This document shows positions 1,290 to 53,864 of a stretch of 64,000 nt of DNA, one piece after another (positions within the stretch are counted from its first letter, which is position 1; every line of letters begins with the position of its first letter). A program made the translations under genes and the position numbers. The notes below the pieces were generated by a model. It was not told the origin of the DNA. It saw only the letters and a list, made by a program, of their open reading frames with translations, and ran no database searches. The DNA is from a virus: positions 1 through 64,000 of the IMG/VR virus record IMGVR_UViG_3300027413_000007, one strand, 5' to 3'.

Positions 1290-4200
1290 TTATTTCTCTG
1301 TGAATAACCAACCGTTAGCGGTGTTATAATATACTAATCCAAATGCTGCTCTATTAACATCAATTGTTAAATCAGAATCTCCTCCTTCAATTTTATGACC
1401 ATTTCTTCCAATTGTAATAGCATTTGTAGCAGCTTGTCCTGTTCCATCAATAATTCTAACTTCATCTCCAAGCGTTGCTGTTGCTGGAAGATTAACGGTT
1501 TTAGCAGTACTTGTATCAACAATTAATCTTTGACCACCAGTTAATGTTAATGGTGTTGTAGTAACTTCTATCCAAGCATCAGGAGCAGTTGATGCTGGAG
1601 TTCTTGCTGCAATATATGCACTATCAACTAATCCAGCAAGCGCTGCAGCATCTACCGTAACATTTGAAGCTTTATTTTCAATTGCAGTAATTGTAATTTC
1701 ATCAGATGTTGAAGCACCAGTTGTTAGCGTAATAGTATTGGTTGTTGGATTAGATGTAAAGTCATCTGAATCCATAAGTTTAATACCATTTTGGAATACA
1801 TTAAAGTTACTCGAATCAATTCCTAATGTCTTTGAATTAGCATCTGTACCAGTAAATGATGTTTGACCGCTTGTAGCAATAAACTTAAAGGTATTCATAA
1901 ATGTATCACCAACAACTATATGTGAAGTTGTAACAGTTTGTGATAAAGTATTAATTACGAGATCATCGCCTGAGTCAGCAGCAAATCCATTTAGAGTTAA
2001 TGAATTTGCTGCAGCATTAACTGTATAATCTACACCAGATACTAATCGAATACCGTTATTAAATACTTGGTAATTAGCAGTATCAATTGCAAGAGCCTCA
2101 CCATTAGCATCATTTCCAGAGAATACTGTTTGACCAGAATCTGCTACATAATAATAATTAGCAAAGTTAACAGCATTTGTAAATGTTCCACCTGATACTC
2201 GAGCTGCAACGTAAGCACTATCAATCATTCCTGTTACAGCAGCTGAGTCTGTACCTGCTGGTAACACGCCTGGAGCCCAATAACTATTTCCATTATCCCA
2301 AATTAATATCTGACCTTCAGTTGGCGCAGTTGTATGAACATCAGCTAATGAAGTAATTGAAGATGTATTGTCTAATTTTGTTCCAAGAGCTGTAGCTGTA
2401 GTAGTAGCATAATTTGCATCATCGCCAAGTGCTGCAGCTAATTCATTCAGAGTATTTAATGTAGCAGGAGCAGCATCTACAAGAGCAGCAACTGCTGAAT
2501 CAACTGAAGTTGTGACTGCGGCTCCAAGAACTGCTCCAACTGATCCAGTTGTTAAAGTTTGTATAACTACATCGTCTGAATCAGCAGCACCTAGTAATAA
2601 AGTAATAGTATTAGTGGCAGAATCTGCGCTATAATCTTCAATTCTATTTAAACGAATACCGTTTATGAATACTTGATGATTATTAGCAGTTAAAGATAAT
2701 GATTGTGAATTAAGATCATTACCAGTAAATGCAGTCTGACCAGCAGTTGCTCTGTATTTGTAATCTTTAAAGTTGGCTTGACCTGCAATAATATAATTGC
2801 CTGTTGATCCACTACTGATATTAGTTATGACTAAATCATCACCAGCATTTGCTCCAGTAGTAAGAACTACAGATGTTGTTCCAGATACAGTATAATCAAT
2901 ATCTTTAAGAAGATGAATACCGTTTAAGAATACCTGAATTCCAGTAGCAGTTACAGCTAAAGTATTGCCAGCAACATCAGAACCACTAAATGTGGTTTGA
3001 TTAGAAGTAGCTGTAAATCTAAAGTTAGAATATTCAGATGTAACAACTCCGCCGCCGGTTACAGTTACTCTTGCACTTATATAATCACTATCAATTAAAG
3101 CTATAATAGTCGCGCTATCAGCAGAACCTCCTCCTGAAGCAGCTCCAGCAATCCATTTGCTTGTTGCTGTGTCATATACTAATGCTTGACCATTAGTTGG
3201 ACTTGGAACATTTACATCTGCAAGAGCACCAAGCGTTGTGACACCAGCCGAAGATCTTGCAAGGATATAGTCACTATCAATTAACTGAAGAACTTCAGCA
3301 GAATCAAATGTCGATATGGTTTGACGAGCTTGAACATATGCTGAATCAATAAGTAATGATCTTGCTTGAACATATGCTGAATCAACCATTCCAATTACAG
3401 CAGAACTATCAATACCTTGTGGAACAACTCTTGCTTGAACATATGCTGAATCAATAAGAGTAACTGCTTTATCCGAATCTAATTTTGATCCAATAAGAGC
3501 AGTAATTGTAGTTGAGAAGTTTGCATCATTTCCAAGAGCTGTAGCAAACTCGTTAAGAGTATCCATTGCTGCTGGCGCACCGTCAATCAGATTATTAATT
3601 GCTGTTGTAATGTCAGCGCCTGAAGCAAGATCTACCCAAGAACCAGCATGAGCAAAGTATGCTTTACCAGTTCCATGTACATGAGCAAACATACCATGAT
3701 AAGATGAAGCACTTGGGAGATCAGCTAAATTAGAATACACATTAGAATATAGGATTTTATTTGTTCCCATATCTAAATCTTTGCCAGTTACATTGCTATC
3801 AACTCTAGCATCTGTATAATAAAGATTTGAACCTTCGGACAATTCACCGGTATTTGCTCCACTTAAATTAAGTGCAGTAGCAACTCCAAGAGAATCAGTA
3901 GTAAGAAATACTCCACCACTATCTTTAAGTCTTAATCCACCAAGATGAATAGTTGAACCACTTATATACAAATCTTTCCATGCAGCAGTTGGGCTACCAA
4001 GATCATATAACTTATCTCCACCTGGAAGAATAGTATTGAATGTTACGTTAGTATTTTCTAATGGAATAGCAGTCCAAGATCCGCCTTTAGATATTCTTGC
4101 TTTATTATCACTTGTTGTCACTGCAGTCATACCAGGATATGTTACTGGATTAGGTAATGAACCAGCACTAGCACCTACAGATTTAAAGCTAATTTGATGT

Positions 4201-7200
4201 GGGCCAAAATCAACAGATCTACTGCCAATTCCTGTTATTAGATCAACATGAGCACTATCAACGATGCCTTTAACATAAGCAGAATCAGCTACAAATTTAA
4301 TATAATCACTATCAGCAATTGATTTGACATAATCTGAATCTGCAATCGACTTAACATAATCGCTATCTGCTATGCCTTTAATATAATCGCTATCAGCAAT
4401 CGACTTAACCCAGTCAGAATCTGCAATCGACTTAATATAATCACTATCAGCAATTGATTTGACATAATCTGAATCCGCTATGCCTTTAATATAATCACTA
4501 TCAGCAATAAGTTTGATATAGTCACTATCAGCAATCGACTTAACATAATCGCTATCAGCAATAAGTTTGATATAGTCACTATCAGCTACAAATTTGATAT
4601 AATCTGAATCTGCGATCGACTTAACATAATCGCTATCAGCAATCGACTTAACATAATCGCTATCAGCAATAGACGTAATATAATCTGAATCAATAATAAA
4701 TTTAAAATGAGCAGAATCGAGTTTACCTGCAGCTGTTAAATCTTCTTTTTGGACTCTAATATTAACAAAACTGGAATCTAATACCGATGTAAAAATATCT
4801 TGACCATCAATATAATATGACATGCCTGCTGCAACATTAATACCGTCTTTTAATCCACCACCAACAATATCTGTACCAACATTGATCGCATATAAACTAC
4901 CAGGAGAATTATGATCAATACCAATACCAGATCTGCTACCGGTTGCAGCTGGTAGATATACTGTACCACCAAAAGTTTGTACTAATGGAGATTCAGTTTC
5001 TAATTTAACAAAACTACCATTTGGTTGCTTTATTTTAATATCGCCATCTACTTGAAGATCTCCATCAACAATATTGACAATACCTTTAATATTCATGGTA
5101 TATGCAGGATCGTAGTTAGTACGTACACCCATTCTAAATAAGTTAGATGGTTCTGACGCTTTCTGTGAAACATTTTTCTGGAAAGCATAATTTGATGTTT
5201 CAGTTGCAATTAAAGCTATTGCTTCAGCAGAATCTAAGAATCTATCGGCATCAACTAAAGCATTAATATAATTTGCATTAATTACACCCTGATATGTTTC
5301 AAATTGATTAAATCCATAATTTTGTTGTCTTGCAAAAATATAATCAGAATCAAAGAAATGTGTTGCAGAATCAGGACTTATAAAGAATTGAGCAACCTGA
5401 TGAGTAAGATAAACTTGATTGCCTTGATTTGAATCAAGAATCCTATCACCTTGCCAATATAGTGACTGTACATTAAGACTACCATTAACATCTAAATTAT
5501 ATCCAGGTGTAGCTGTGTTGATACCAACTCTTGGAGCAGTCGTGTGAAGATAACCAGATCCAGCTGTGTTATAAAAATACTGAGATGCTGGCATACTTGT
5601 GCGATAATGCGCTGTATTAATATGTGATTGAACATAAGTAGCATTAGCATTTGCTCTAATCCATGCTTGGTTAGCAACGTCTTGTTGAATATATTGATAT
5701 AATGGTTTAGTGTTAATAGCAATATTACTTGTAAAGTTTGCTAAATCTTGAACATCTAATCCGTATGTTGCTCCAGCAGCTACTTTACCAATTGCTACTG
5801 CACCACCCATAATAGACATTGTGTTATTAGCAGATACAGTATTAATATTTGCATCTAAACCAATTCCAATAGAACCTTCGCCTGTTGCTTTAATTTTTCT
5901 ACCAATAGCAATAGAACCTACGCCCGTAGCTTCTACATCGGTACCTAATGTGATACCACCATTTGCAGCTATAGTATCTTTACCAAAGCCAAAGCCACCT
6001 AAAGTTGCTTGGTTACCTTCACCGAAACCATACGCTTTTGCACTAGTACCATCAATAATATTGCCATGGCCATAAGCAAAACCTTCATCATCAACAGTAT
6101 TAGAATGGCCAAACGCATAACCAAAATCAGTAATAGTGTTTGCTCTACCATATGCATCGCCACCTTCAGTTACAGTATTGCTAGATCCGTAAATATTACC
6201 ATTCTTATTAAGAATATTTGATGCACCGAAGATGAATCCACCTTGAGATGAATTACCCCCGGAGATACCTAAACCTGTATTTGCATTACCATATACATTA
6301 ACATTATAGAAGTTTTTATTGTCATTACCATACACATTAGATGCAACTTTAATGTTTTTATTTCTATGACCATATACGTTATGTACAGAGTTTATAGTTT
6401 CATTTTCCCATCCATAAACTCTTGAGAATTTTGTTATACTCTTATTCGAGTTACCTATTATAAAAGATTTATTAATACCAGTAGCATTTAATTTACCAAC
6501 AACAAAACTAGATTGTCCAGTACTGTTTCCTGATCCGTAAACATACGAGTAATTACTAGTAGTATTACCTACACCAAACGCTGCAGCCTGTTTTCCACCA
6601 ATTGTCTGGTCGCGACCAAAAGAAATTCCGCTAGCGCCAGTAGCAGACGTATTTAAACCTACACCAACACCAGTATTACCAGAACTAACATTGAAACCAA
6701 TAGAAACTCCGGAGGTCCCAGTACTTGTATTTTGACCTATACTCGTACCGTTTGTACCAGCTGTGGCTGTACTACCAATCGCAAGAGCATTCGTCCCAGC
6801 TTGAGAATTCTTTCCGATTATGACTGAATTTGTATTAACACCAGTGGTATTATCTCTACCAATATTAAGACCATTTTGACCACTAGCAAGATTATATCCT
6901 ATGACAACAGAATTTTTTGAGTTGTTAGTAAGCTTATTACCAATAGCAGTATTTTTAAAATGATCGTTATGATTACCAGGATCACCAGTAATTTCTTTAC
7001 CAATTACGACACCAGCACCAGTAGTAAGATCTTTACCAATAGCAACTCCGCCGTCAAGTGTAATTGCAGCACCGCTTCGGCCTGTATTTGTAATTTCAAG
7101 ACCAATAGATACTGATTTTTGCTTATTGCTGTTTGTAATATCTTTACCAAGACCAACACTAAATTGACCTGGATTAGTAACAGTATGACCTACTGAAACT

Positions 7201-10200
7201 GATGCAGTAGTATGAAGAGGACCTTTTGCTATTCCAACATAAGATACATTACCAGCATTTGCGTCATAACCAATAGCTGTTGAATAATCAGTAGCTAAAG
7301 TATTATAGCCAATACCCTGTGATTGGAATCCAACTTCATTACTATCCCATGTTACATTTGTTCCATCAACTTCACCTGCTCTGAAAGCGCCATATTCTGG
7401 AATCCACATAAGTCTTGAACCAGCACCAATTTGAGTACCAGCTTTACTTAATGGAACAACGCCTGCTTTTGGATGTTGAGCAATAGTTGCAATATTTGAG
7501 CTAAGGAATAATACATTACCAGAATCTACTGCAAATCTTGTTGTTCCATCATTTGCATGAATAGTATCTTTTTGACCAACAATTACAGAACCTTCTTCGT
7601 CATAATAAATTTGTTGATTACCACCTGCAGGACCTATTCTATTCCAAGGAGTAATTAATCTTTCACCAATATAAGTCGAGTCTATAACTCTCATAAGATT
7701 AGAATCGAAAGATCTTCCAATATATGGATTAGTTAAAATAAATCCTCTAGCTGAATCGTAAGAAGATGAGTGATAAGGGCCGAAATACAATTCAGCGCTT
7801 TCTCCGGCTGTCATGGTTTGATTAATACTATCCCAAAGTAGTCCGCCATTAATTACTCTATAATCAGCATCAGCTCTGCGACTACCTCCAAATAACAAAC
7901 CACCGTTTTGTATTTTAGCAATTTTACCGTCTACAGTAAATCCAGTTTTAAATATAGCACTATCATTAAATGTAAATTGAGTATTGGCCTGAGCAGAACC
8001 ACTATCTTCACCAGTAGCACTTTTGCTACTTGTAATATTAAGATTACCACTTAAAGTAATAGCCGGATTTTCTAATTGAAAACCTGATGCTACTGTAAGA
8101 GGACCTTTAACTGTAAGTGATGCATCATTCTTTCTACTTCTTGCTTCAATTTTAATTACATCATTTAATTTTAATCTTGTATTTGCAGCAGAGTCAAAGA
8201 TATGAATAAGACTATTACTTGCTTCTTCCCATTTTTCTCCATTTGATTCAAGTTCAACACCATTAATATATACTTTTGTTAGACCATTTTTAACGTAACT
8301 AAGAATTTTACTTGTTGGGCTTGAGTTGTCACTATCTTGAAGTCTTAGACCAAAAAGACTACTACCTTTAAGAGATGTTATTGGATGTAGTCCTCTATTA
8401 TCAATTCTAAGATCTGTTATTGTAGAGGTATTTGCTGGAGGTGAGCCTACGCCCCAGCCAGGAAGTGATGCTAATCTTAATTCAATAGTATTAGTTCCGG
8501 TTACTACAAAATCTCCAGTTTGAACACCAAGAGCAGCGCTTCCTGTGCCAATGTTGAGCTCTGAAGAATCAAATCGTGGCGATGATCCAGGCGGATTCCA
8601 GTTATAAGGTCTAAATGATACTACAATATGACTATCATCTAAAGCTGGACCAGGTATTCCAGATATAGTAATCGAAGAATCACCGAGTGGTAAATGGTTA
8701 TCTACTCCTGCATTCCCAACGCTTCCAAGAATTATTCCTAAAGCTCCACCAGCTCCATTATCAAGAGTTAATTGATCTCTTGAAACTACATAGCTATCAG
8801 CATGATCAATCCTAGGATCTTTTGGTGAACCATCAGTAAATATAAATTCAAATGTATCGTCTGGTGTTATTTTATGTCCTTCAATAAGGCTATGTCCACC
8901 AGCACTAAATCCAGAATCAACTCTTACATCACCTTTAACGTATAATCTAGATCCTGGATGATCGATAGGAGCACTATCTGCACCAATTGCAACTTGAGTA
9001 TCAGTATTAAATCCAACTCCACCAAAATAGAGAGTATGACCATCAGCAGATCTTCTCCAATGCGAACTATCATTAGCATTATGAAGAATATAGTTAGGAC
9101 TAATAACAGTTTTCAGATAACCAGAATCGATAACAGAAGCAATGACCGACGAGTCAATGTTCATTCTATCTTTTACATAATCATTAGTAACAATTGTTGC
9201 AATATAGTCTTGAGTTGGCCAAGCGACCTGAGTACCTTGAGCAGATGTAGTAATAATAGGAGATTTATGATCAATTGCGGCTTGTAAAGAAGCATTATCT
9301 TCTGCAGGCCTATTTCCTAAAGATGCGCCTGCTACCTGATAATTTGGAAGATCAATACGAGCTTTACCAAGAACATCAAGCGAGAATTTCTTATAATCTA
9401 TTCCATCAATATTATCTTTGTAAGATGCATCACTTACACTAACATCATTTCTAGCAATTGTAACAGCATTACCTTGTGGAATGTCTGCAGCAAGAGATGC
9501 ATCTGCTTGAAAGTTAATAAGTTGATCGCCCTCTTTTAAGGCCCAGAAGTTATCAATAGAAACTCTTGCTTGAACATATGCCGAATCAAGATGATTTTCT
9601 AGAATTGGAATAAGTCCACCAGTTGGTCTTACAACAAAGCTGTCAAACGACATTCTTTCGCCAGTACCAGGATTATCACCAATCGTAAATACACTACCTG
9701 AAACAGATTGTCTAAAATGAATTGAGCCTTCTACAGTAGCGCTATCAGCTACAGTTAGTTTTCCAAGTATATTTAAATCAGCACTCGGTGTAGCTACTAC
9801 AGTTGGAACGACTTGAGCATAAATTGCTGATGATGTATCAAATGTTCCGCTGTAATCTGTGGTAGTAACTGGTTGAGTTAATGCTTGATCATGAAATAAT
9901 TCAAATTTATTAGTATTAGTTATACCTCCAGATCCATTATCTGGCCCAGTAAAGAAAGTAATTGCGTCTATAATACCAGCAGGTGATGTAATAGCAACTC
10001 CTTGGAATCGAACAGCATCACCTACTGTTAAACCGTGAACACCACCGGTCGGTAAAATAACTTCGGTTTTTGTGCCTGATGCAGAAATAGTAAAATTTGA
10101 TACTAAAGCTGCAACATTTATAACTTCATAGCTACCATTGACCGAATATATACTAGGTTCGCTTGACATATCAAGTGGTACAGTACATGCTCTATCAGTA

Positions 10201-13200
10201 AATAAATTAAATGTATTTGCATCAACTGCCTGAACAAAATATATATTATCGGCTGTACTATTATAATTAAAACTACTAGAAGTTCCAGAAGTACTATCAG
10301 TCTCAACATTAACAAATTTAATAGCTAATCCGCTGCCTGGGCCACCTGCAGTAGCCATCGAACCGGGGGCTGCAAGTTTATGACCACCGGATGAAGTTAC
10401 TGTTAAACCATTCCAGAGATTATTTGCTGTTACACTTCCATTTCCACTAGTTGCGTCAATATTAATAGTAAATCCATCGGGAAATGTAGAAACTGGAGTT
10501 GTAAATGCTGTGTGTGTAACAACAACAATAGGTTCCGTGCCTTTAATAAAATCTTTAATATTAACATTACCAATATAAAGTGTAGCACCACTATCAATAT
10601 TTACATCACCATGAATATCAAGAGTATAATTCGGATTAAATCCAGAAACATATTTTGCAGCATTATTATGAGGTGTTTTCGCAGTTTTACCAATCATAAT
10701 ATTAGTATTGTTTAAACCCTTGTTTACAAGGTTACTATCAAGAATACTAGTACCAGCATCGTTAAATGTCTCTGGCTTCATAATTACGATGCCATTACTT
10801 AATCCGGTTGGAATAAATGTATTACCACCAATAAATATAGTATTATCAGCAGTACCACCTACTGCAGTTCCACCATACTGCGCATTTACTCCAGCTGTGT
10901 GTGAATCTTTCCAACCCGCACCAATTACAATATTATCAGCATTAGTATTATTAATAAAACTATTATCTTTACCGAATATTAAATTATTTTCAACACCAGT
11001 ACCATCTAATTTATTATCTTTACCAATTAGATAATTGTTATCTCCAGCATTATCAAGTATATTACCGTCACCAATAGCAAATGATTTATTAGTAGCACCA
11101 GTTGATGTATTAGCTAATCCAAATTTATTACCAATACCAAATGCGTAAAGTTTAGTTCCAGTACTACTTGAGTCTTGCACGTTACCTTCACCAAGGAACA
11201 TGTTTTGATCTGTTATAATTTGGTTATCTTTACCAATTGCGACACTATACTTACCTTGACTAGTAAGACCGTATGTAGAACCTCTAAGAAGAATATCTCC
11301 TTTAGAAGTCCTTTGTCCAACTTTATTTTTTGAACCTAAAGATATAGAAGAAAACCCTCTCGCATATGGTTCTTGACCCATACCTATAGAAGTAATACCT
11401 AAATCAGAATTTTGATGTTCAGCAAGTAAAATTTCACCAGCTCTAATAAGTCCAGCTCTTGAGCTGTACATAAACATATTGTCATATTCATTACCAGGAA
11501 ATACTCCAGCAGAATCGAATATTGCTGAATCAGTAGCAGAATAAGTTAAAGCTTTTAAACCATCAACTTGGAAATCACCACGAACATCAAATTCTGTATT
11601 TGGTGTTGTTTTTTGTACACCAATATTTCTTGGTGTTTCTTGAATAATAAACGTTCCGTTATCAACAAACGCATTACCTGCAATAGGGGCTCCACCTTCT
11701 GGATTCCACTGCGCAAATGTGCCGCCGTAAAGAATATCACCGCCAACAAATAAATTACCAGCTCCATCAATAGCCGCAAACATATCTGATTCTCTACCAA
11801 TCGATACGTTACCACCTTGAATAGCCATGAGGTTATCATCTACAACAATACCTGGTAATGTTCTATTTGGATTATTAAGTAAATCAGCGCCTGCTCCATA
11901 TGTAGGAGTAGTAGTGACCATTTGAAAATTTATGCTTTTATTAGCAGTATTAGCAATATGACCATTCATACCAAATGCGTAAGAAGATTGTCCTGAGACT
12001 ATATTTTCTCTGCCAAACGCAAACGCATCACCTCCACCAACTTTATTATAAGAACCAATTGCAAACGATAAAGCACCACCAACAGAATCTTCCACGCCAA
12101 AAGCATAACCAGCATTACTTTGAGCTCTGTTGTTTTGTCCTATTAAAAAATTAAAATTGCCGCCAGCCGATTTATTGTCAAGACCAATAAATACCTGTTG
12201 GAAACCGCCATTTGATACCACATTATTTTTACCTAAAATAAAGGTATCATCACCCATTGCAGTGTTTCCTGCGCCAAGTAAAATATTTCTATCACCGCCA
12301 TCAGAATTGCTTGCTCCAATACCAACAGAATATAAACCAGTTATTTTATTTTTGAAACCCATAGCAATTGAACTAATACCGCCAGCTTGGCTACTATCAC
12401 CAGTTGCAAAACTACCTTGACCAGATGCTTTAACATTTCTACCAAAAGCCGCTGAAAATTGACCTAAAGCACCCCAAGCAAAATCATTATGGTTTGTAAA
12501 GTATCCACCGCGCGTTGATGCTTTTCCTGGAACAAACGAAAATCTAGATCCTTTATCTGAATCAGCAAGAGCGCTTAGTGTTGGATCACCGTAATTAATT
12601 ACAAGATCATTTGCCATAGAAATCTCGCCAGAGACTTTATCATTATAGCTAGCATCAAAAGTTTGACTACTTCCTGCTAAAGGACCCTTTACTTGAAATG
12701 GCCCGCCATGAACTTCAAACCTAGATTTAGGTTTATCTGTACCAACCGCAATTCTACCAAATCCACCATATGGATAAGTTGCTGAAAAATCTCTTGGAGC
12801 AAAATACGCATCATCTATAGCTGTAGCTGTAAATAATCCGCCGCCTGTAAATGGAACACCATTTTGTAAAAGTTCGCCAGTAAAGTTAATACTACCATCT
12901 TTATGAACTTCGAATAAAGAACTATCTTCAAGTGATATAGCTCTTATTAAAACTGAAACGTCTGAATCATTAGCACTAGTACCATCACCTGGAAATCTTC
13001 TAAGATCTCTTCCACTGTCTTTATGTAAATCACTTTTAAAATAGTTAATAGGTAAAGTAGAAGTTAATGAATATTTACGCCCCGCAAATTCGGTTGAGTC
13101 GCCATTAGTAGTTACTGTTAAACCATAAAATTCTCTAGCTTGAGCAGAATCTGGATAATATATTGAATTTGGATCAATTGTTCTTAATCCAGGTTTTGAA

Positions 13201-14918
13201 GCATAAGAACCTAATCTAACTCCTGCAGCATCAACAACTCCAGTATTTTTATCAACAACAAATCTAAACCAGCCAGAATCTTGTATAATTTGTTCTGCAA
13301 CCATAAGACCAAATCGAGTACCATTAGCTCTATCAGTTTTTTCTCCGTAAAATAATTCGCCGCCTTGAATAGAGTCTAAATTGCCAGAAGTTAAAACTGA
13401 ACCTGGAAGTAAATCTGTAACTCTTAATTTTTGAAACATTGCTGGAGAATATGATACTATTTCTCCGGTTGGTTTAATAGTTAAACCTTTAAAGTTACCT
13501 TGAGTATGCCCAATTTTTAATCCATCGGTCGAATCATACATGAAGTCTGAATCGCCACCCAGTGTTTTGTCTGCATTAACAAATGGCACAGTACCAGGAG
13601 CAAGTGACGTACCTGGAGCGTTAAATTCTAGTCTATTGACTCTAAGAAAATCAACATCACCAGAATCCGCTTTAAAATATTTAAAATACGCTGAGTCAGC
13701 TTGTAAATCTTTATTATAGAAAAGTCTATTTGTTGTCCAATAATTTTCGTATTGTGTTCCAGCAGCACCAGCTTGCCAAGTAATAGTTGCACCTACTGGT
13801 CCACCTACTGTAATGCCTGCTCCTGATGCCCATGCTGAGTCAGCAGCATTATCAGCCACAACAATGTTTTTATCTACGATCGTAACTGTTTCAGATTGAA
13901 TTGATGTTGTCGTACCTTGCACATTAAGATTACCAACAATATTAACATCACCTGCAACATCACCAAACGGAAATGGATCGATGTTAATTGTAGCTGGACC
14001 ACGATATTCTGGGCTATGCGCAATACCAAAACTATGATATAAAGAATGACCGCTATCCACATCAAGTTGACTAATATATGCATTTGTTATTTTTGCAGAG
14101 TCAGCATCAAATTGGCCAATATAACCGCTATCAGCATCTATTCTTGAAATATAAGCACTATCGACATCTAACTGACTAATATATGCAGAGTCAACCATTA
14201 GTCTTGAGATATATGCAGAGTCTACGTCGAGTTGACTAATATATGCAGAGTCAACCATTAGTCTTGAAATATAAGCACTATCAACATCAAGTTGAGAAAT
14301 GTACGCACTATCGCCTTTTAATCTAGAAATAAATGCAGAGTCAACATCAAGTTGACTAATATAACCACTATCAACATCAAGTCTTGAGATATATGCACTA
14401 TCAACATCGAGTTGAGAAATGTATGCAGAATCAACCATCAAGCGACTAATATAACCACTATCAACATCAAGTTTTATAATATGCGCAGAGTCACCAGTGA
14501 GTCTTGAGATATAGCCAGAATCTACGTCTAACTTCCATACAAATGCTGAGTCACTAGTAAGTCTTGAAATATAGCCAGAATCTACATTAAGCTGACTAAT
14601 AAATGCCGAGTCCGCTTTAAGTCCGTGTGTATATAAGAAATCAATGGCACGTTCTGAGTCAAGAAGTAAAAATTTATCACCAATCGCAACTCCAGGATTT
14701 CCTGCAGCTTGCATAAGAGTCATGAATTTTTCACCACCTACCGCAGCTACTCTACTTGCCATTTGAGGAACTACAAGCGAATCGACTGCTGGACCTACAC
14801 CAACGAATAATGTTCCGCCTGCTACACTGTCATAATATGAATATGCAAGCTCGCCTAATGCTAAACTTGAAGGGGTGGCTAATTGGCCTGATCTCTTAAT
14901 CTGGATTATAGATGCCAT
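1290..14918 (-). CDS. Giant repeat-built tail fibre/adhesin (4542 aa)
   Basis: This very large structural protein is probably a long side tail fibre that contacts the host. The N-terminus (MASIIQIKRSGQ...LALGELAYSYYD...GGTLFVG) is a common phage fibre opening. Residues ~93-290 hold about 19 ten-residue repeats of the type DVDSAYISQL. Residues ~815-980, ~1170-1355 and ~2530-3040 are YadA/trimeric-autotransporter-head-like stretches (SVAIGKDN, NSVVIGYN, SIAIGRK repeats), which suggests a trimer with left-handed beta-roll segments. Residues ~3406-3560 hold about 16 nine-residue ADSDYVKSI repeats. Residues ~3950-4360 carry four copies of a module with a QVFxNGIRL core. The C-terminus ends in a fibre-like beta domain (RLIVDTSTAKTVNLP...). 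The frame stays open for 13.6 kb. The ribosome-binding site is weak, and a TATAAATA late box lies about 40 nt upstream. Confidence 0.85.
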   Translation of the reverse strand: MASIIQIKRSGQLATPSSLALGELAYSYYDSVAGGTLFVGVGPAVDSLVVPQMASRVAAVGGEKFMTLMQAAGNPGVAIGDKFLLLDSERAIDFLYTHGLKADSAFISQLNVDSGYISRLTSDSAFVWKLDVDSGYISRLTGDSAHIIKLDVDSGYISRLMVDSAYISQLDVDSAYISRLDVDSGYISQLDVDSAFISRLKGDSAYISQLDVDSAYISRLMVDSAYISQLDVDSAYISRLMVDSAYISQLDVDSAYISRIDADSGYIGQFDADSAKITNAYISQLDVDSGHSLYHSFGIAHSPEYRGPATINIDPFPFGDVAGDVNIVGNLNVQGTTTSIQSETVTIVDKNIVVADNAADSAWASGAGITVGGPVGATITWQAGAAGTQYENYWTTNRLFYNKDLQADSAYFKYFKADSGDVDFLRVNRLEFNAPGTSLAPGTVPFVNADKTLGGDSDFMYDSTDGLKIGHTQGNFKGLTIKPTGEIVSYSPAMFQKLRVTDLLPGSVLTSGNLDSIQGGELFYGEKTDRANGTRFGLMVAEQIIQDSGWFRFVVDKNTGVVDAAGVRLGSYASKPGLRTIDPNSIYYPDSAQAREFYGLTVTTNGDSTEFAGRKYSLTSTLPINYFKSDLHKDSGRDLRRFPGDGTSANDSDVSVLIRAISLEDSSLFEVHKDGSINFTGELLQNGVPFTGGGLFTATAIDDAYFAPRDFSATYPYGGFGRIAVGTDKPKSRFEVHGGPFQVKGPLAGSSQTFDASYNDKVSGEISMANDLVINYGDPTLSALADSDKGSRFSFVPGKASTRGGYFTNHNDFAWGALGQFSAAFGRNVKASGQGSFATGDSSQAGGISSIAMGFKNKITGLYSVGIGASNSDGGDRNILLGAGNTAMGDDTFILGKNNVVSNGGFQQVFIGLDNKSAGGNFNFLIGQNNRAQSNAGYAFGVEDSVGGALSFAIGSYNKVGGGDAFAFGRENIVSGQSSYAFGMNGHIANTANKSINFQMVTTTPTYGAGADLLNNPNRTLPGIVVDDNLMAIQGGNVSIGRESDMFAAIDGAGNLFVGGDILYGGTFAQWNPEGGAPIAGNAFVDNGTFIIQETPRNIGVQKTTPNTEFDVRGDFQVDGLKALTYSATDSAIFDSAGVFPGNEYDNMFMYSSRAGLIRAGEILLAEHQNSDLGITSIGMGQEPYARGFSSISLGSKNKVGQRTSKGDILLRGSTYGLTSQGKYSVAIGKDNQIITDQNMFLGEGNVQDSSSTGTKLYAFGIGNKFGLANTSTGATNKSFAIGDGNILDNAGDNNYLIGKDNKLDGTGVENNLIFGKDNSFINNTNADNIVIGAGWKDSHTAGVNAQYGGTAVGGTADNTIFIGGNTFIPTGLSNGIVIMKPETFNDAGTSILDSNLVNKGLNNTNIMIGKTAKTPHNNAAKYVSGFNPNYTLDIHGDVNIDSGATLYIGNVNIKDFIKGTEPIVVVTHTAFTTPVSTFPDGFTINIDATSGNGSVTANNLWNGLTVTSSGGHKLAAPGSMATAGGPGSGLAIKFVNVETDSTSGTSSSFNYNSTADNIYFVQAVDANTFNLFTDRACTVPLDMSSEPSIYSVNGSYEVINVAALVSNFTISASGTKTEVILPTGGVHGLTVGDAVRFQGVAITSPAGIIDAITFFTGPDNGSGGITNTNKFELFHDQALTQPVTTTDYSGTFDTSSAIYAQVVPTVVATPSADLNILGKLTVADSATVEGSIHFRQSVSGSVFTIGDNPGTGERMSFDSFVVRPTGGLIPILENHLDSAYVQARVSIDNFWALKEGDQLINFQADASLAADIPQGNAVTIARNDVSVSDASYKDNIDGIDYKKFSLDVLGKARIDLPNYQVAGASLGNRPAEDNASLQAAIDHKSPIITTSAQGTQVAWPTQDYIATIVTNDYVKDRMNIDSSVIASVIDSGYLKTVISPNYILHNANDSSHWRRSADGHTLYFGGVGFNTDTQVAIGADSAPIDHPGSRLYVKGDVRVDSGFSAGGHSLIEGHKITPDDTFEFIFTDGSPKDPRIDHADSYVVSRDQLTLDNGAGGALGIILGSVGNAGVDNHLPLGDSSITISGIPGPALDDSHIVVSFRPYNWNPPGSSPRFDSSELNIGTGSAALGVQTGDFVVTGTNTIELRLASLPGWGVGSPPANTSTITDLRIDNRGLHPITSLKGSSLFGLRLQDSDNSSPTSKILSYVKNGLTKVYINGVELESNGEKWEEASNSLIHIFDSAANTRLKLNDVIKIEARSRKNDASLTVKGPLTVASGFQLENPAITLSGNLNITSSKSATGEDSGSAQANTQFTFNDSAIFKTGFTVDGKIAKIQNGGLLFGGSRRADADYRVINGGLLWDSINQTMTAGESAELYFGPYHSSSYDSARGFILTNPYIGRSFDSNLMRVIDSTYIGERLITPWNRIGPAGGNQQIYYDEEGSVIVGQKDTIHANDGTTRFAVDSGNVLFLSSNIATIAQHPKAGVVPLSKAGTQIGAGSRLMWIPEYGAFRAGEVDGTNVTWDSNEVGFQSQGIGYNTLATDYSTAIGYDANAGNVSYVGIAKGPLHTTASVSVGHTVTNPGQFSVGLGKDITNSNKQKSVSIGLEITNTGRSGAAITLDGGVAIGKDLTTGAGVVIGKEITGDPGNHNDHFKNTAIGNKLTNNSKNSVVIGYNLASGQNGLNIGRDNTTGVNTNSVIIGKNSQAGTNALAIGSTATAGTNGTSIGQNTSTGTSGVSIGFNVSSGNTGVGVGLNTSATGASGISFGRDQTIGGKQAAAFGVGNTTSNYSYVYGSGNSTGQSSFVVGKLNATGINKSFIIGNSNKSITKFSRVYGWENETINSVHNVYGHRNKNIKVASNVYGNDNKNFYNVNVYGNANTGLGISGGNSSQGGFIFGASNILNKNGNIYGSSNTVTEGGDAYGRANTITDFGYAFGHSNTVDDEGFAYGHGNIIDGTSAKAYGFGEGNQATLGGFGFGKDTIAANGGITLGTDVEATGVGSIAIGRKIKATGEGSIGIGLDANINTVSANNTMSIMGGAVAIGKVAAGATYGLDVQDLANFTSNIAINTKPLYQYIQQDVANQAWIRANANATYVQSHINTAHYRTSMPASQYFYNTAGSGYLHTTAPRVGINTATPGYNLDVNGSLNVQSLYWQGDRILDSNQGNQVYLTHQVAQFFISPDSATHFFDSDYIFARQQNYGFNQFETYQGVINANYINALVDADRFLDSAEAIALIATETSNYAFQKNVSQKASEPSNLFRMGVRTNYDPAYTMNIKGIVNIVDGDLQVDGDIKIKQPNGSFVKLETESPLVQTFGGTVYLPAATGSRSGIGIDHNSPGSLYAINVGTDIVGGGLKDGINVAAGMSYYIDGQDIFTSVLDSSFVNIRVQKEDLTAAGKLDSAHFKFIIDSDYITSIADSDYVKSIADSDYVKSIADSDYIKFVADSDYIKLIADSDYVKSIADSDYIKLIADSDYIKGIADSDYVKSIADSDYIKSIADSDWVKSIADSDYIKGIADSDYVKSIADSDYVKSIADSDYIKFVADSAYVKGIVDSAHVDLITGIGSRSVDFGPHQISFKSVGASAGSLPNPVTYPGMTAVTTSDNKARISKGGSWTAIPLENTNVTFNTILPGGDKLYDLGSPTAAWKDLYISGSTIHLGGLRLKDSGGVFLTTDSLGVATALNLSGANTGELSEGSNLYYTDARVDSNVTGKDLDMGTNKILYSNVYSNLADLPSASSYHGMFAHVHGTGKAYFAHAGSWVDLASGADITTAINNLIDGAPAAMDTLNEFATALGNDANFSTTITALIGSKLDSDKAVTLIDSAYVQARVVPQGIDSSAVIGMVDSAYVQARSLLIDSAYVQARQTISTFDSAEVLQLIDSDYILARSSAGVTTLGALADVNVPSPTNGQALVYDTATSKWIAGAASGGGSADSATIIALIDSDYISARVTVTGGGVVTSEYSNFRFTATSNQTTFSGSDVAGNTLAVTATGIQVFLNGIHLLKDIDYTVSGTTSVVLTTGANAGDDLVITNISSGSTGNYIIAGQANFKDYKYRATAGQTAFTGNDLNSQSLSLTANNHQVFINGIRLNRIEDYSADSATNTITLLLGAADSDDVVIQTLTTGSVGAVLGAAVTTSVDSAVAALVDAAPATLNTLNELAAALGDDANYATTTATALGTKLDNTSSITSLADVHTTAPTEGQILIWDNGNSYWAPGVLPAGTDSAAVTGMIDSAYVAARVSGGTFTNAVNFANYYYVADSGQTVFSGNDANGEALAIDTANYQVFNNGIRLVSGVDYTVNAAANSLTLNGFAADSGDDLVINTLSQTVTTSHIVVGDTFMNTFKFIATSGQTSFTGTDANSKTLGIDSSNFNVFQNGIKLMDSDDFTSNPTTNTITLTTGASTSDEITITAIENKASNVTVDAAALAGLVDSAYIAARTPASTAPDAWIEVTTTPLTLTGGQRLIVDTSTAKTVNLPATATLGDEVRIIDGTGQAATNAITIGRNGHKIEGGDSDLTIDVNRAAFGLVYYNTANGWLFTEK
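4250..4730 (-). repeat. 27-nt tandem repeats encoding ADSDY[VI]K(S/G/L)I
   Basis: About 16 tandem 27-nt units lie inside the giant fibre gene. Each encodes a nine-residue ADSDYVKSI-like motif, with third-base variation between units. They are coding repeats with conserved period and reading frame, not a CRISPR array: there are no unique spacers. They probably form a regular rod or coiled segment of the fibre. Confidence 0.85.
14045..14640 (-). repeat. 30-nt tandem repeats encoding DVDSAYIS(Q/R)L
   Basis: About 19 tandem 30-nt coding units near the N-terminus of the giant fibre encode ten-residue motifs (xxDS[AG][YF]I[SG][QR]L). Units alternate between SQL and SRL endings. The protein pattern is kept while the nucleotides vary, so the repeat is under protein-level selection. 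The same DSAY motif recurs singly elsewhere in the protein and links it to the nine-residue array near 4.3-4.7 kb. Confidence 0.85.
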
Positions 14919-49217: not shown

Positions 49218-49805
49218 ATGACAGAGATATTTAAAACACTAGAATTAGAAGCCTTTAGAGCGGGAATTACACCTCGTTCTAAAGAATCGCGTGAATGGTT
49301 CCGCAAGAAAATTACTTCTATGCGCGGAAAAGAGTTTCGTAGAATTAAACAAGGTACATTAATGCAAGAAGATGAATTGACTCTTACTAATAATACTGAT
49401 ATTGGTAAGATGTGCATGTTCTTCTATGATCCAAAGCATAAAGAAACATTGCCATTTTATGATAGCTTTCCGCTTGTAATTATTATTGGTAAAGCAAAGG
49501 GAGGCTTTTTAGGAATGAATCTTCATTATTTGCCACCTACTTTACGAGCTAAATTTCTTGATGCTCTAATGGAAAATGCAGGGCAAGATGATTTTAATGT
49601 TACATATCGAACAGTCAAAGCCGCAACAAATATGAAATACTACAAACCTACTATTAAACATTATTTAAAGAAACATTTGAAAAGTAGACTTGCAACTGTG
49701 CATGCACCTGAGTGGGAGATAGCTACATTTCTTCCAACTGCATCCTGGAATAAAGCATCTGGTCGAGAAGTATATCAAAATTCGAGGAAGATCATAAATG
49801 GGTAA
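49218..49805 (+). CDS. Conserved T4-like head/tail completion-region protein (possibly gp2-like)
   Basis: This 195-residue protein contains MCMFFYDPKHKETLPFYDSFPLVIII and GFLGMNLHYLPPTLR, a conserved signature in marine T4-like phages at this locus. Its N-terminal ~45 residues are basic. In some annotations such proteins are named DNA end protector gp2, which would fit its location next to gp4, but I cannot confirm the equivalence by eye. The start ATG is 8 nt after the gp4 stop, and its end overlaps the next gene by 8 nt, so the three are translationally linked. Confidence 0.65.
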   Translation: MTEIFKTLELEAFRAGITPRSKESREWFRKKITSMRGKEFRRIKQGTLMQEDELTLTNNTDIGKMCMFFYDPKHKETLPFYDSFPLVIIIGKAKGGFLGMNLHYLPPTLRAKFLDALMENAGQDDFNVTYRTVKAATNMKYYKPTIKHYLKKHLKSRLATVHAPEWEIATFLPTASWNKASGREVYQNSRKIING

Positions 49806-50520
49806 TAGTCGTATATTTAATATTGATGCTTTTAAAGGTCAGATCGGAAAAGGCCTAGCAAGATCAAATAAATTTGTGATAGGTTTGCCTGCAGGTAGAA
49901 CCATAGAAGATGACCACAACAAATTTCAACCTCCAAGCAATGAATCGCGAGTTGCTGCAGTGGCTCAGGGTCTGCCAGCTCGAGATACCTTACATTTTTT
50001 ATGCAGATCCTGTTCTTTACCTATGAATCAAATGCTAACATCAGAGCGGGTAATAGGAATGAAACAAGAGAAAATTACTTATGGTTATGCTCAATCAGAT
50101 GTAACACTTTCTTTTTATGAACCAAATGATTTTCCAATAAGAAAATATTTTCAAACTTGGCAAAATACACAAGTAGATCAAGATGAAGGAGAACTTAACT
50201 TTAAAAAATCATACGCAAAAGATATGACAATAACTGCATTTTCAACAGAGGGATCTCCTTTATTTGGCGTTTCATTAATAGATGCTTTTCCTGTGACTAT
50301 AAATCAACAAGATTTTTCGAACGAAAATAACGGTATTGTAGATACAACCGTGACTATAACATATACTCGATATTTGTCACAGATACCCTCCGCTATGAAA
50401 AATGTTCCAGGTGGCAGTGGCTTAGGTCTTCCTGACGGAATTGATAAATTCGTAAAAGATGTACGAGATTTAAATAAATTAAAAAGTGTATGGTTAGATC
50501 ACGAAAGAAATATCGGATAA
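49798..50520 (+). CDS. Tail-tube-fold protein (gp54/gp19-like baseplate-tube initiator)
   Basis: This 240-residue protein has the tube-fold pattern: RSCSLPMNQMLTSERVIGMKQEKITYGYAQSDVTLSFYEPND, FPIRKYFQTWQNTQVD and FPVTINQQDFSNENN, typical of contractile tail tube and tube-initiator proteins. T4 gp19 has 163 and gp54 320 residues; this length and its place beside gp26 and the tape measure favour gp54-like. The order tube protein, chaperone-type frameshift gene, tape measure is the classical tail module order. The tube gene itself may lie elsewhere in the genome. Confidence 0.6.
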   Translation: MGNSRIFNIDAFKGQIGKGLARSNKFVIGLPAGRTIEDDHNKFQPPSNESRVAAVAQGLPARDTLHFLCRSCSLPMNQMLTSERVIGMKQEKITYGYAQSDVTLSFYEPNDFPIRKYFQTWQNTQVDQDEGELNFKKSYAKDMTITAFSTEGSPLFGVSLIDAFPVTINQQDFSNENNGIVDTTVTITYTRYLSQIPSAMKNVPGGSGLGLPDGIDKFVKDVRDLNKLKSVWLDHERNIG

Positions 50521-50551: not shown

Positions 50552-51265
50552 ATGGCACTACCAATTTTAAATGACAAACCTAAATATGAAATGACTATTC
50601 CATCAACTGGTCAAATAGTACGTTTTAGACCTTATCTAGTAAGAGAAGAAAAGGTTCTGATGCTTGCTATGGAATCAGAAGATTCAAATCAAATGTTCTC
50701 ATCAATTATTGATACCATAAAGGCGTGTGTCGATACAGAGGAAAGTGATATAAAATGGAATGAACTCGCAATATTTGATATTGAATATATGTTCGTAACT
50801 ATTAGATCTAAATCTGTTGGAGAAACAAGTAAACTGAATTTAAAATGTACTGAATGCGAAGAATCAAATGAATTAGTTGTTGATCTATCTGATATTGCTC
50901 CGGCTATGCCTGATGTGTCATCAACAATTGTTCTTACAGACGATATTAGTTTAGAAATGCAATGGCCAGCTTATAGTGATTTAAATAAAGCTGGAATGCA
51001 AGAAATGAGTAGCACTGAACTTACAATGATGATGATTGGTAATTGTATTAAATACGTAAATACAGTTGATGATCAAATTATACTGAGAGACGAATCACAG
51101 GAATCAGTGACTGCATTTATTGATTCTTTAAGCACAGCACAATTTGAGATGATAAAAAATTATACTGAGAAAATGCCGCAGATTATAAAGAATATTGAAT
51201 TTGATTGTGAGAATTGCAATCATCATAATGAAATTAAACTACAAGGAATGGCTGATTTTTTTTAG
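50552..51265 (+). CDS. 26: Baseplate hub assembly protein gp26-like (T4_baseplate family)
   Basis: This 237-residue protein (T4 gp26 has 208) has the family features: YEMTIPSTGQIVRFRPYLVREEKVLMLAMES, IDTIKACV, LAIFDIEYMFVTIRSKSVGE and C-x2-C-like pairs (LKCTECEE near residue 110; FDCENCNHHNEI near the end), a zinc-ribbon-like pair. In T4 gp26 acts in hub assembly; by position and by the overlapping frame that follows it is also the counterpart of tail assembly chaperones. The gene ends at a TAG located directly on a run of eight T, where a -1 frameshift is predicted. It has a ribosome-binding site (GAGGTAATATA) before the ATG. Confidence 0.8.
   Translation: MALPILNDKPKYEMTIPSTGQIVRFRPYLVREEKVLMLAMESEDSNQMFSSIIDTIKACVDTEESDIKWNELAIFDIEYMFVTIRSKSVGETSKLNLKCTECEESNELVVDLSDIAPAMPDVSSTIVLTDDISLEMQWPAYSDLNKAGMQEMSSTELTMMMIGNCIKYVNTVDDQIILRDESQESVTAFIDSLSTAQFEMIKNYTEKMPQIIKNIEFDCENCNHHNEIKLQGMADFF
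51256..51263 (+). promoter_or_regulatory. Predicted -1 programmed frameshift slippery site (T8) at the gp26 stop
   Basis: Eight consecutive T directly precede the last two bases of the TAG stop of gp26 (stop at 51263-51265). The -1 frame opens immediately after the slip and runs to 51456. An 8-bp inverted repeat (51286-51303, CTTATAAA/TTTATAAG) lies about 20 nt downstream and could form a stimulatory hairpin. This is a prediction from sequence geometry. Confidence 0.6.
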
Positions 51266-51456
51266 TATGCCTCTCTCATGATAGTCTTATAAATTTTTAT
51301 AAGAGTAACTTCAGGATGATGCAAGACCATAATTATTCGTTAAGTGAACTAGAAAACATGATACCGTGGGAAAGAGAAATCTATATTATGCTTTTAAGTG
51401 AACACATAAAAGAAGAAAACGACAAAGCAAAAGAGCGTAATCTTGGGAAGACGTAA
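51262..51456 (+). CDS. -1 frame extension of gp26 (frameshift product; chaperone-type C-terminal module)
   Basis: In the -1 frame relative to gp26, an uninterrupted 64-codon extension follows the slippery run: LVCLSHDSLINFYKSNFRM, then MQDHNYSLSELENMIPWERE, then IYIMLLSEHIKEEN. The W/Y/IP...WEREIYIxLL pattern resembles the C-terminal halves of frameshifted tail assembly chaperones. It could instead be read alone from ATG 51316 (47 codons), but no ribosome-binding site stands at correct spacing before that ATG. The frameshift product would be 301 residues. It sits between gp26 and the tape measure, the classical location. Confidence 0.6.
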   Translation, partial: LVCLSHDSLINFYKSNFRMMQDHNYSLSELENMIPWEREIYIMLLSEHIKEENDKAKERNLGKT

Positions 51457-51470
51457 TAGGATAGAATAAT

Positions 51471-53864
51471 ATGGCAACTATAGAACAGTTAACACAGCAG
51501 CTTGTTAATGTAAACGAGAATCAAAACGACACAGCCAAAGAGACTAAAAAAGAAATTAGTGATCTGTCAAAAAGTGTGAAAGATCTTCTAAAATTTCAAA
51601 AAGAGCAAGCAAGAAAATCTGGTCAAGATTTGGAAGCTGAAAGAGAAGCATCGAGAAGAACATCAAGCGCGGTTGCCACTTCTGGCGGCAGCGGTGCTAG
51701 CGGTGGTGATGCAGGTGGTTCTATGGGTGGAATAGGTTCAATGCTAGGCGGGGTAGCTGCTTGGGCTGGGGGATTTCTCTTAAAATTTACAAAAATTTTC
51801 GGAATGCTAAAACGTATGTTTATGTTCGGAGCTCGAGCTACTGGTATAGGTGCAGTAATATATTTAATTTATCAAACCTTTAAAGATATTGGTGAAAATA
51901 AAAATTTTCAAGAAGCTATAGAAAAAATAAAAGAAAGTTGGAATTCTATAAAAACTTCATTTACTTCTATAAAAAATAAAATAGTAGGTTTTTTTGTAGA
52001 TGAAAACGGTGAGAAAACAGATCTAACAAAAACAATAGAAGATACTATAAATTCAATAACCGAATTTCTTGTAAAACCACTTAATAGAATTAAGTGTACT
52101 ATTCAAGATTTTGTTAGTGTAACACTCTCAACAGTTGTGAAAAGTATTGAAACCATATTTAATGGTATCGATTTAATATTAAGTGGAGAGTTCGGCGCAG
52201 GTTTGAATGAACTATTTAAAGCGGCTTTAGGATGGGATTTTGAAGCCGGAAAAATGACAACAGAATCTATGGGCTTATTGTGGCTTCTTAAAAATTCTTA
52301 CGATGCTGTTCTAAGTCTTATGCCTGACATGGAAGTGGTTATACCCTCTATAAGTAAAAGTTTTGACGATATGTGGAATAGTTTATCATGTCATATTGAA
52401 GATGGATTAGCTTATATTACCGAAAAGTGGGAAGTGCTTTCTGGATTCTTTACTGAAACAATACCGGGATGGATTGAAACTACAAAAGATAAATTTGTAA
52501 CAGCATGGGACATCAGTAAAGATTTACTTAAAACTAAGTGGGATGAAGTAGTAAAATTCTTTACTGTAGATGTACCAAAATATTTTACTGATTGGCTTAC
52601 CACCGCTGTTGATAATGTTGCAGCTCCAATTGCTGCAACCTGGGCCAGAGTAGTTGATTGGTTTCTCAGAGTCAACACCAAAATTACTACAAAATATGAA
52701 GAGATTAAAGCTTTCGGTTCTGATATAATATCTAAAATAAAAGATACTTGGTGTAATGTTGTTGAATTCTTCACTGTAGATATACCAGCTAAAATGAAAG
52801 AAACTTGGGAATCAATAAAAGCTTTCGGTTCTGATATAATATCTGGAATAAAAGATACTTGGTGTAATGTTGTTGAATTCTTCACTGTAGATATACCAGC
52901 TAAAATGAAAGCAGTATGGGAAACAATAAAAGCATTAGGAAGCAATCTATTAGGTACTGCAGAAACTGGTCTTAAAATGTATTGGGATTTTCTTGTTGAT
53001 TTTTATACCGTTAAAATACCAGCCGCAATGAAAGCAGTATGGGAAATAATAAAAGCAGGTGGCACAGGTATATTAGATAATATTAGCGCAAAATGGGAAA
53101 GTCTTAAATGTTTCTTTACTGATACAATTCCAGAAAAAATTAGTAATTTTTTATCACCTCTAGAAAATTTTGATGTAATGGAATTTATTACTGAAAAATT
53201 TGAAGCGGTTAAATGTTTCTTTACTGATACTATTCCAAACAAAATTGCTGAATTTAATCCGCTTGGTGAGTTTAATTTGATGGAAGAAATAGGTAAAAAA
53301 GTGGCTGATATGCTAGCTATGATTTTTGATCTTATTCCAAGCATAGAAGATATTAAAAATACTATAATAAGAAGCGTAAATAAATTAGGCAGCGCTGGAA
53401 AAGCTGTAATGGACTTTTTCGGATTAGGATCTGGAACAGAAGGTCCAGGTCCGTTGACTTCAAAGCAAGAAGTAGCGGCGGCCACTGCAGAAAGAACAGA
53501 ACAGGGATTAAAACCTTTCGCGGGTATACTGGGTGTGCAAGCGTTTAACCCTAAGACTGGGGATATGCAGGATCACAATTATCTTCAGATGAAAACTTTT
53601 TTAGCAAATGAACATAGTGCTATGAATAAGCATCTAATAAATAAGAAAGCTGACGACGAGCGGCTTGAAAGGCTAGCACAATCTGATAAATTAGGGCTAA
53701 TAGCTGATAAGCTTGAAGCATTAATAACAGAACAGGCTATGAGACCTCAAAATGAAGGTTTAAAATCTATGGTTAATAATCAAACTTATAATTATGTCAC
53801 GGCACCAGCAACGTCAACTGATGATGAATACGGTGGCCTGCTCAATCGCCTGAGACGATGGTAA
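51471..53864 (+). CDS. Tail tape measure protein (gp29-like)
   Basis: This 797-residue protein starts with a coiled-coil-like charged region (~1-65), then Ser/Gly-rich linker and hydrophobic segments near residues ~80-140 (GSMLGGVAAWAGGFLLKF, TGIGAVIYLIYQTF). The central part carries related modules with recurring FFTVDIPAKM and WETIKAF-like motifs, as in proteins that measure tail length, including a near-identical 37-residue duplication (see repeat at 52707). The C-terminus is charged and ends in a YGGLLNRLRRW tail. Position after the chaperone-type frameshift gene supports a tape measure, the T4 gp29 counterpart (590 residues). Confidence 0.75.
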   Translation: MATIEQLTQQLVNVNENQNDTAKETKKEISDLSKSVKDLLKFQKEQARKSGQDLEAEREASRRTSSAVATSGGSGASGGDAGGSMGGIGSMLGGVAAWAGGFLLKFTKIFGMLKRMFMFGARATGIGAVIYLIYQTFKDIGENKNFQEAIEKIKESWNSIKTSFTSIKNKIVGFFVDENGEKTDLTKTIEDTINSITEFLVKPLNRIKCTIQDFVSVTLSTVVKSIETIFNGIDLILSGEFGAGLNELFKAALGWDFEAGKMTTESMGLLWLLKNSYDAVLSLMPDMEVVIPSISKSFDDMWNSLSCHIEDGLAYITEKWEVLSGFFTETIPGWIETTKDKFVTAWDISKDLLKTKWDEVVKFFTVDVPKYFTDWLTTAVDNVAAPIAATWARVVDWFLRVNTKITTKYEEIKAFGSDIISKIKDTWCNVVEFFTVDIPAKMKETWESIKAFGSDIISGIKDTWCNVVEFFTVDIPAKMKAVWETIKALGSNLLGTAETGLKMYWDFLVDFYTVKIPAAMKAVWEIIKAGGTGILDNISAKWESLKCFFTDTIPEKISNFLSPLENFDVMEFITEKFEAVKCFFTDTIPNKIAEFNPLGEFNLMEEIGKKVADMLAMIFDLIPSIEDIKNTIIRSVNKLGSAGKAVMDFFGLGSGTEGPGPLTSKQEVAAATAERTEQGLKPFAGILGVQAFNPKTGDMQDHNYLQMKTFLANEHSAMNKHLINKKADDERLERLAQSDKLGLIADKLEALITEQAMRPQNEGLKSMVNNQTYNYVTAPATSTDDEYGGLLNRLRRW
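52707..52915 (+). repeat. Near-identical 111-nt direct duplication in the tape measure gene
   Basis: Two copies (from ~52707 and ~52818) of a module beginning AAAGCTTTCGGTT are offset by exactly 111 nt and differ, over about 94 nt, by only two neighbouring bases. Each codes for a 37-residue unit of the tape measure protein. The low divergence indicates a recent in-frame duplication or ongoing homogenisation; it would change tail length. Confidence 0.8.

Follow-up and report, generated by a model that had tools for sequence, protein, structure and literature searches.

Xu, Hendrix and Duda reportedly described in 2004 how long-tailed phages use frameshifts in their tail assembly chaperone genes. 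In phage lambda, gpG and gpGT are chaperones of the tape measure protein, and the frameshift that links such tail chaperones has been described as widely conserved "except T4" (PMC5009743). T4 gp26 and gp51 are both listed as hub assembly chaperones, and gp51 is essential, absent from the particle and of unknown function (PMC3004832). Here we describe the gp26 locus of the virus represented by IMG/VR record IMGVR_UViG_3300027413_000007, of which we analyzed positions 1 to 64,000 (hereafter the window), most of the 68,179-base record. Judging from the sequence comparisons described below, it is very likely that this one gene gives rise to two proteins through a -1 slip of the ribosome on the heptamer T_TTT_TTT, and we infer both the slippage itself and a chaperone role for the two products.

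The gp26 frame gives a full-length match to PF12322 (184 bits, against a cut-off of 24.5) and begins at a good ribosome-binding site (RBS; dG -6.9). It is the single PF12322 gene of the window, and its second part is encoded in the -1 frame, unlike T4 gp51, which is a separate gene in one frame. A first-pass annotation of this DNA, made from the letters alone, had predicted a -1 programmed frameshift at the gp26 stop, pointing out that the TAG lies on an eight-T run and that the -1 frame opens at once for 64 codons. Both details are correct (Table 1): the 0 frame ends GAT TTT TTT TAG, and the -1 frame is open from the TTA at 51262 up to the TAA at 51454-51456, with the 64-codon product LVCLSHDSLINFYKSNFRMMQDHNYSLSELENMIPWEREIYIMLLSEHIKEENDKAKERNLGKT. 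A one-base tandem slip on T_TTT_TTT would give the junction ...MADFF-LVCLSHDSL... and a predicted fusion of 237+64 = 301 residues, the length that had been expected. The product of the -1 open reading frame (ORF) matches phrog_634, annotated as "baseplate hub assembly catalyst", and from its residue 4 it matches the end of phrog_150. Among window ORFs of at least 100 residues, gp26 is the only one that combines, close to its stop, an in-phase slippery heptamer of the tested form with a -1 extension of at least 30 codons.

For the conservation tests, we used 130 loci gathered chiefly through the -1 domain, with the heptamer not serving as a criterion, and 48 clusters of them for codon-level statistics. 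In the first 31 relatives (42-100% identity) the stop lies directly on T-TTT-TTY and the -1 frame is open and conserved in every case. Over the full set, 125 of the 130 loci have T_TTT_TTT, T_TTT_TTC or T_TTT_TTA at this position and in the correct phase, and the five exceptions (T4, Aes012, Phi1, PTE-Eco09, and one Campylobacter phage) each have an uninterrupted gp51 gene. The conservation of the T run and of the -1 frame among relatives, which had been proposed as a check on the predicted frameshift, thus supports it from the comparative side. The position of the 0-frame stop varies, being 0, 1, 2, or 8 codons past the heptamer, and the heptamer rather than the stop is the fixed feature. Its first Phe codon is TTT in 48/48 clusters as opposed to 363/503 in the body of gp26 (P 1.6e-7), and the codon before it ends in T in all 48 as well (P 2.9e-9), both P values being approximate because clusters were treated as independent. 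The site is therefore not explained by amino-acid conservation alone, and the second codon of the heptamer can even turn to Leu (TTA) with slipperiness retained. By these conservation tests, the joint arrangement of gp26, slip site and -1 ORF stands far above chance.

An element resembling a Shine-Dalgarno (SD) sequence, with the forms GAGG, GGAGGG or AAGGA, is conserved at a fixed place 10-16 nucleotides (nt) 5' of the slip site. The 8-mers whose first base lies 14-16 nt ahead of the heptamer pair at -4 kcal/mol or below in about 80-85% of clusters compared with a background of 3%, and the element is stronger than expected from synonymous resampling (z -11). At loci L029 and L031 the usual Gly codon is lost, and AAGGA is kept in a different codon phase. 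This upstream element, which is newly described here, is probably a frameshift stimulator. On the 3' side, the RNA is more stable than in synonymous controls from +6 to +12 nt, with a peak at +6 nt (mean z -1.94, standard error 0.30), and strong hairpins begin 5 or 6 nt past the slip site at L066, L089, L090, L029, and other loci, with no downstream fold shared among relatives according to alifold. The hairpin suggested for the window in the first-pass annotation does exist as an AU-rich inverted repeat, but it fared less well as a conserved stimulator. We rejected it in that role, as it lies too far 3' and its pairs are broken in L007, L009, and L012, including a 78%-identical relative.

Substitutions within the -1 frame indicate that it is under purifying selection. 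Over its first 18 codons, differences at codon positions 1, 2, and 3 number 3367, 2950, and 5840, and codons with a single difference are synonymous in 2829 cases and nonsynonymous in 1365. A rival reading of the -1 frame is a separate small gene (gp51), read from an internal start such as the ATG at 51316 by reinitiation or from an RBS of its own; gp51 is annotated separately in most annotated records, and two lineages without the slip site have an ATG that overlaps the gp26 stop. However, the selection acts on codons that lie 5' of the first start. In the window, the ATG at 51316 is the earliest of the -1 frame, and conserved residues 5' of it are therefore unreachable by ordinary initiation. 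Between the -1-frame stop on the 5' side and the heptamer, start codons are absent from all 48 clusters, and about half (25/48) have none within the first 18 codons. An SD-like site precedes the first -1-frame ATG in only 2% of clusters, against a background of 8% and 63% at gp26 starts, and the slippery run is kept, so that the relatives do not show the separate gene with its own RBS that had been named as the result that would speak against a frameshift. A separate gene would also leave the conserved heptamer and the fused gp51 of T4 unexplained, and we rejected this reading on the absent starts and absent RBSs; we regard it as very improbable. Because of the codon bias, the third-position substitutions, and the absence of starts and RBSs, the -1 frame appears to be translated by frameshifting, and by this comparative evidence the second ORF is expressed in a shifted frame without a start of its own, as in systems of the lambda G/GT kind. 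The shift might instead arise in transcription, with RNA polymerase slipping on the T8 run to produce transcripts with an altered number of U. The run in the window is conceivably long enough for this, but 29 of the 48 clusters have TTTTTTC and five have TTTTTTA, and such six-T runs are generally too short for RNA polymerase slippage. The T_TTT_TTN codon phase and the constant spacing of the SD-like element suit ribosomes instead, and we give slippage of the polymerase very little credence. As homopolymers are prone to error, a sequencing error or a broken gene was also considered, but this is already refuted by the conservation: the same layout recurs in 125 loci, which come from numerous contigs and phage records, mostly as a mixed T6C run with varied stop codons and stop distances, and the chance of an artifact is negligible.

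The comparison with T4 suggests where the same two protein forms reside in T4-type phages. T4 gp26 (208 residues) and gp51 (249 residues) are encoded on opposite strands. Both cover the full PF12322 (8.8e-64 and 3.9e-52, respectively), and they match one another by BLASTP (2e-6). The gp26 gene of T4 ends GAG TTC TTT GAG, with the slip site absent, and T4 gp51 has an extra C-terminus past PF12322. A profile built from the -1 extensions only matches this C-terminus in all eight fused gp51 proteins examined, seven of them at E of 3e-5 or below (T4, 6.8e-6; Aes012, 3.6e-10) and that of AM101 weakly (0.11), and it matched none of the gp26 proteins tested. When the profile is made from whole predicted fusions, the alignment covers gp51 almost to the last residue, and on gp26 it reaches the junction. 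Structure models agree with this, in that strands and helices follow one another alike in the AF2 model of the window gp26 (pLDDT 86) and in the model of a T4-type fused gp51, which has three additional helices. On the sequence evidence, T4 gp26 and gp51 are paralogues that represent the short and the long form of the protein, and the C-terminus of gp51 corresponds to the -1 domain. Neither a gp26/gp51 frameshift nor gp26-gp51 paralogy is reported in the open-license literature that we searched. T4 gp26 also weakly matches the gp28 family phrog_1140 (9.4e-4; L032 8349-8882 and 5803-6429), which raises the possibility that gp28 is a third, distant relative of gp26 and gp51.

We propose that the majority of ribosomes would terminate at the end of gp26 to produce the 237-residue short form, and that some would slip by -1 on T_TTT_TTT (T_TTT_TTC or T_TTT_TTA in relatives) and continue to the 301-residue long form, which would end in a three-helix domain. 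The slip would be aided by the internal SD-like element about 10 nt 5' and, in many relatives, by a hairpin on the 3' side as well. T4-type phages would make the same two forms from two paralogous genes, gp26 for the short form and gp51, in one frame, for the long. From the position of the gene and the homology to T4 gp26 and gp51, both forms are most likely assembly chaperones for the tape measure and hub, as are lambda gpG and gpGT for the tape measure. The chaperone idea is not new, because in the record of Acinetobacter phage AM101 the name "tape measure protein assembly chaperone" is already given to gp26, gp51, and gp28.

How the one-gene and two-gene arrangements are related can be considered from copy number, which we took from a PF12322 search over whole records (the Campylobacter record being partial). 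A single copy is present in each of the 14 slip-site phages, each of the eight phages with a fused gp51 has two, and the two phages with a TAATG overlap instead of the slip site have one each. The simplest reading of this pattern, not a proven one, is that the ancestor used a programmed frameshift and that a duplication of the gene later took its place, after which gp26 retained the short form and the long form became fixed in a single frame as gp51. We consider this probable, and T4 would then be no true exception to the frameshift rule. Several results weigh against parts of this account. The gp26/gp51 tree, in which gp51 (100/99), most gp26 (91/87), and the frameshift genes (on one side at 66/59) form three separate groups, is unrooted with long branches and weak deep support, and the direction of change is consequently inferred. 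There is no slip site in Cygsa01 (L136 3309) and Vibrio D504 (L044 3097), where the -1 ORF opens with an ATG that overlaps the gp26 stop (TAATG). This suggests that these lineages have switched to making a separate, coupled protein, and the -1 domain may therefore also work unfused. With respect to the chaperone role, the most probable match of the gp26 model in a fold search against solved structures was the HK97 tail assembly chaperone 2ob9, at low significance (E 0.73, probability 0.60); the gp51 model had no match in that search, and no solved-structure homologues were found by sequence search. The fold link between gp26 and known tail assembly chaperones is thus suggestive only. The three groups of an unrooted tree would also suit an ancestor with separate short and long genes, one of which was then lost in the frameshift lineage as the slip site arose there. 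Against such an order of events, the slip-site genomes are spread over Kyanoviridae, Emdodecavirus, Menderavirus, a Desulfovibrio phage, and, within Straboviridae, the Emmerichvirinae (VH7D, V07, and AS-szw), and the two-copy genomes are those of Straboviridae and of a Campylobacter phage. RB43, moreover, still has both paralogues, gp51 (long) and gp26 (short), as a tandem pair on the same strand with an 8-base overlap (L133 3001-4294). We think it unlikely, if still worth weighing, that two genes came first. In the Campylobacter phage, the in-frame gp51-like gene (L126 2437-3177) lies beside terminase and a homing endonuclease, at a distance from the rest of the tail genes. Another PF12322 gene is found elsewhere, and this gp51-like gene may be an independent duplication.

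The tail-chaperone frameshift is among the most conserved phage recoding events, with an exception noted for T4, which is better studied than any other phage with a contractile tail. The present comparisons would bring hundreds of marine T4-like phages (cyanophages, pelagiphages, and vibriophages) under the frameshift rule, and they offer a specific hypothesis for T4 gp51 that would fill the "except T4" gap. The suggestion in the first-pass annotation that the chaperone frameshift extends to T4-like gp26/gp51 therefore holds for the marine T4-like relatives but does not carry over unchanged to T4 itself, which has two paralogous genes instead. If the duplication reading is true, this is a clear case of duplication standing in for a programmed frameshift. 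The gp51 entries of many cyanophage records also appear to be misannotated, shortened, or missing. In the S-CAM1 record (L036 2504-2689) the -1 ORF is unannotated, and other records place its start at arbitrary internal codons.

The features of the locus are collected in Table 1. The order of tube protein, frameshift gene, and tape measure, proposed earlier from the letters, is borne out by the profile matches (phrog_45, the overlapping gp26/-1 ORF pair, and phrog_1272), and it is the order of the lambda G/GT kind. Elsewhere in the window, a 4542-residue ORF on the minus strand (1290-14918) has no Pfam match above the cut-off.

Table 1. Positions of the gp26 locus features in the window.
Feature	Positions	Strand	Evidence
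Tail tube-like protein, upstream neighbor	49798-50520	+	phrog_45 1e-27; PF06841 3.3e-06, slightly below cut-off
gp26 frame, short form, 237 residues, PF12322 (T4_baseplate) / phrog_150	50552-51265	+	Pfam 4.2e-54; PHROG 3.2e-56
Internal SD-like AAGGA, 8 nt before heptamer, probable frameshift stimulator	51243-51247	+	Conserved in ~85% of the 48 clusters (background 3%)
TGA closing the -1 frame directly 5' of the T8 run	51253-51255	+	Sequence
Slippery heptamer T_TTT_TTT, inside the T8 run 51256-51263	51256-51262	+	In-phase T_TTT_TTY/A at same place in 125/130 loci
gp26 TAG stop, adjoining the heptamer and overlapping the end of T8	51263-51265	+	Sequence
-1 extension, 64 codons, gp51 C-terminal domain, phrog_634	51262-51456	+	phrog_634 4.7e-26; purifying selection; no start; homology to T4-type gp51 C-terminus
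AU-rich inverted repeat CTTATAAATTTTTATAAG, hairpin of the first-pass annotation	51286-51303	+	Starts 23 nt past heptamer; not conserved
Tape measure protein, downstream neighbor	51471-53864	+	phrog_1272 8.3e-19

Of the described systems, lambda gpG/gpGT resembles this locus in the site lying between the tube and tape measure genes, in a canonical heptamer close to the 3' end of the first gene, where a -1 slip gives short and long products, and in a second frame without its own start. It differs in that gp26 and the -1 ORF are unrelated to it by sequence as far as tested, that the slip site and the gp26 stop are often directly adjacent, and that there is a conserved internal SD-like element. 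T4 gp26/gp51 belong to the same family, PF12322, and the C-terminus of gp51 is homologous to the -1 domain, but in T4 there are two separate genes without a slip site, whose paralogy is undescribed in the papers found. In -1 frameshifting of the dnaX type, an upstream SD sequence acts as a stimulator. The gp26 site is similar to it in having an internal SD-like element about 10 nt 5' of the heptamer with optional downstream structure; the gp26 heptamer is U-rich, whereas that of dnaX is A-rich, and the gp26 shift would lengthen a phage protein, whereas the dnaX shift shortens a host one.
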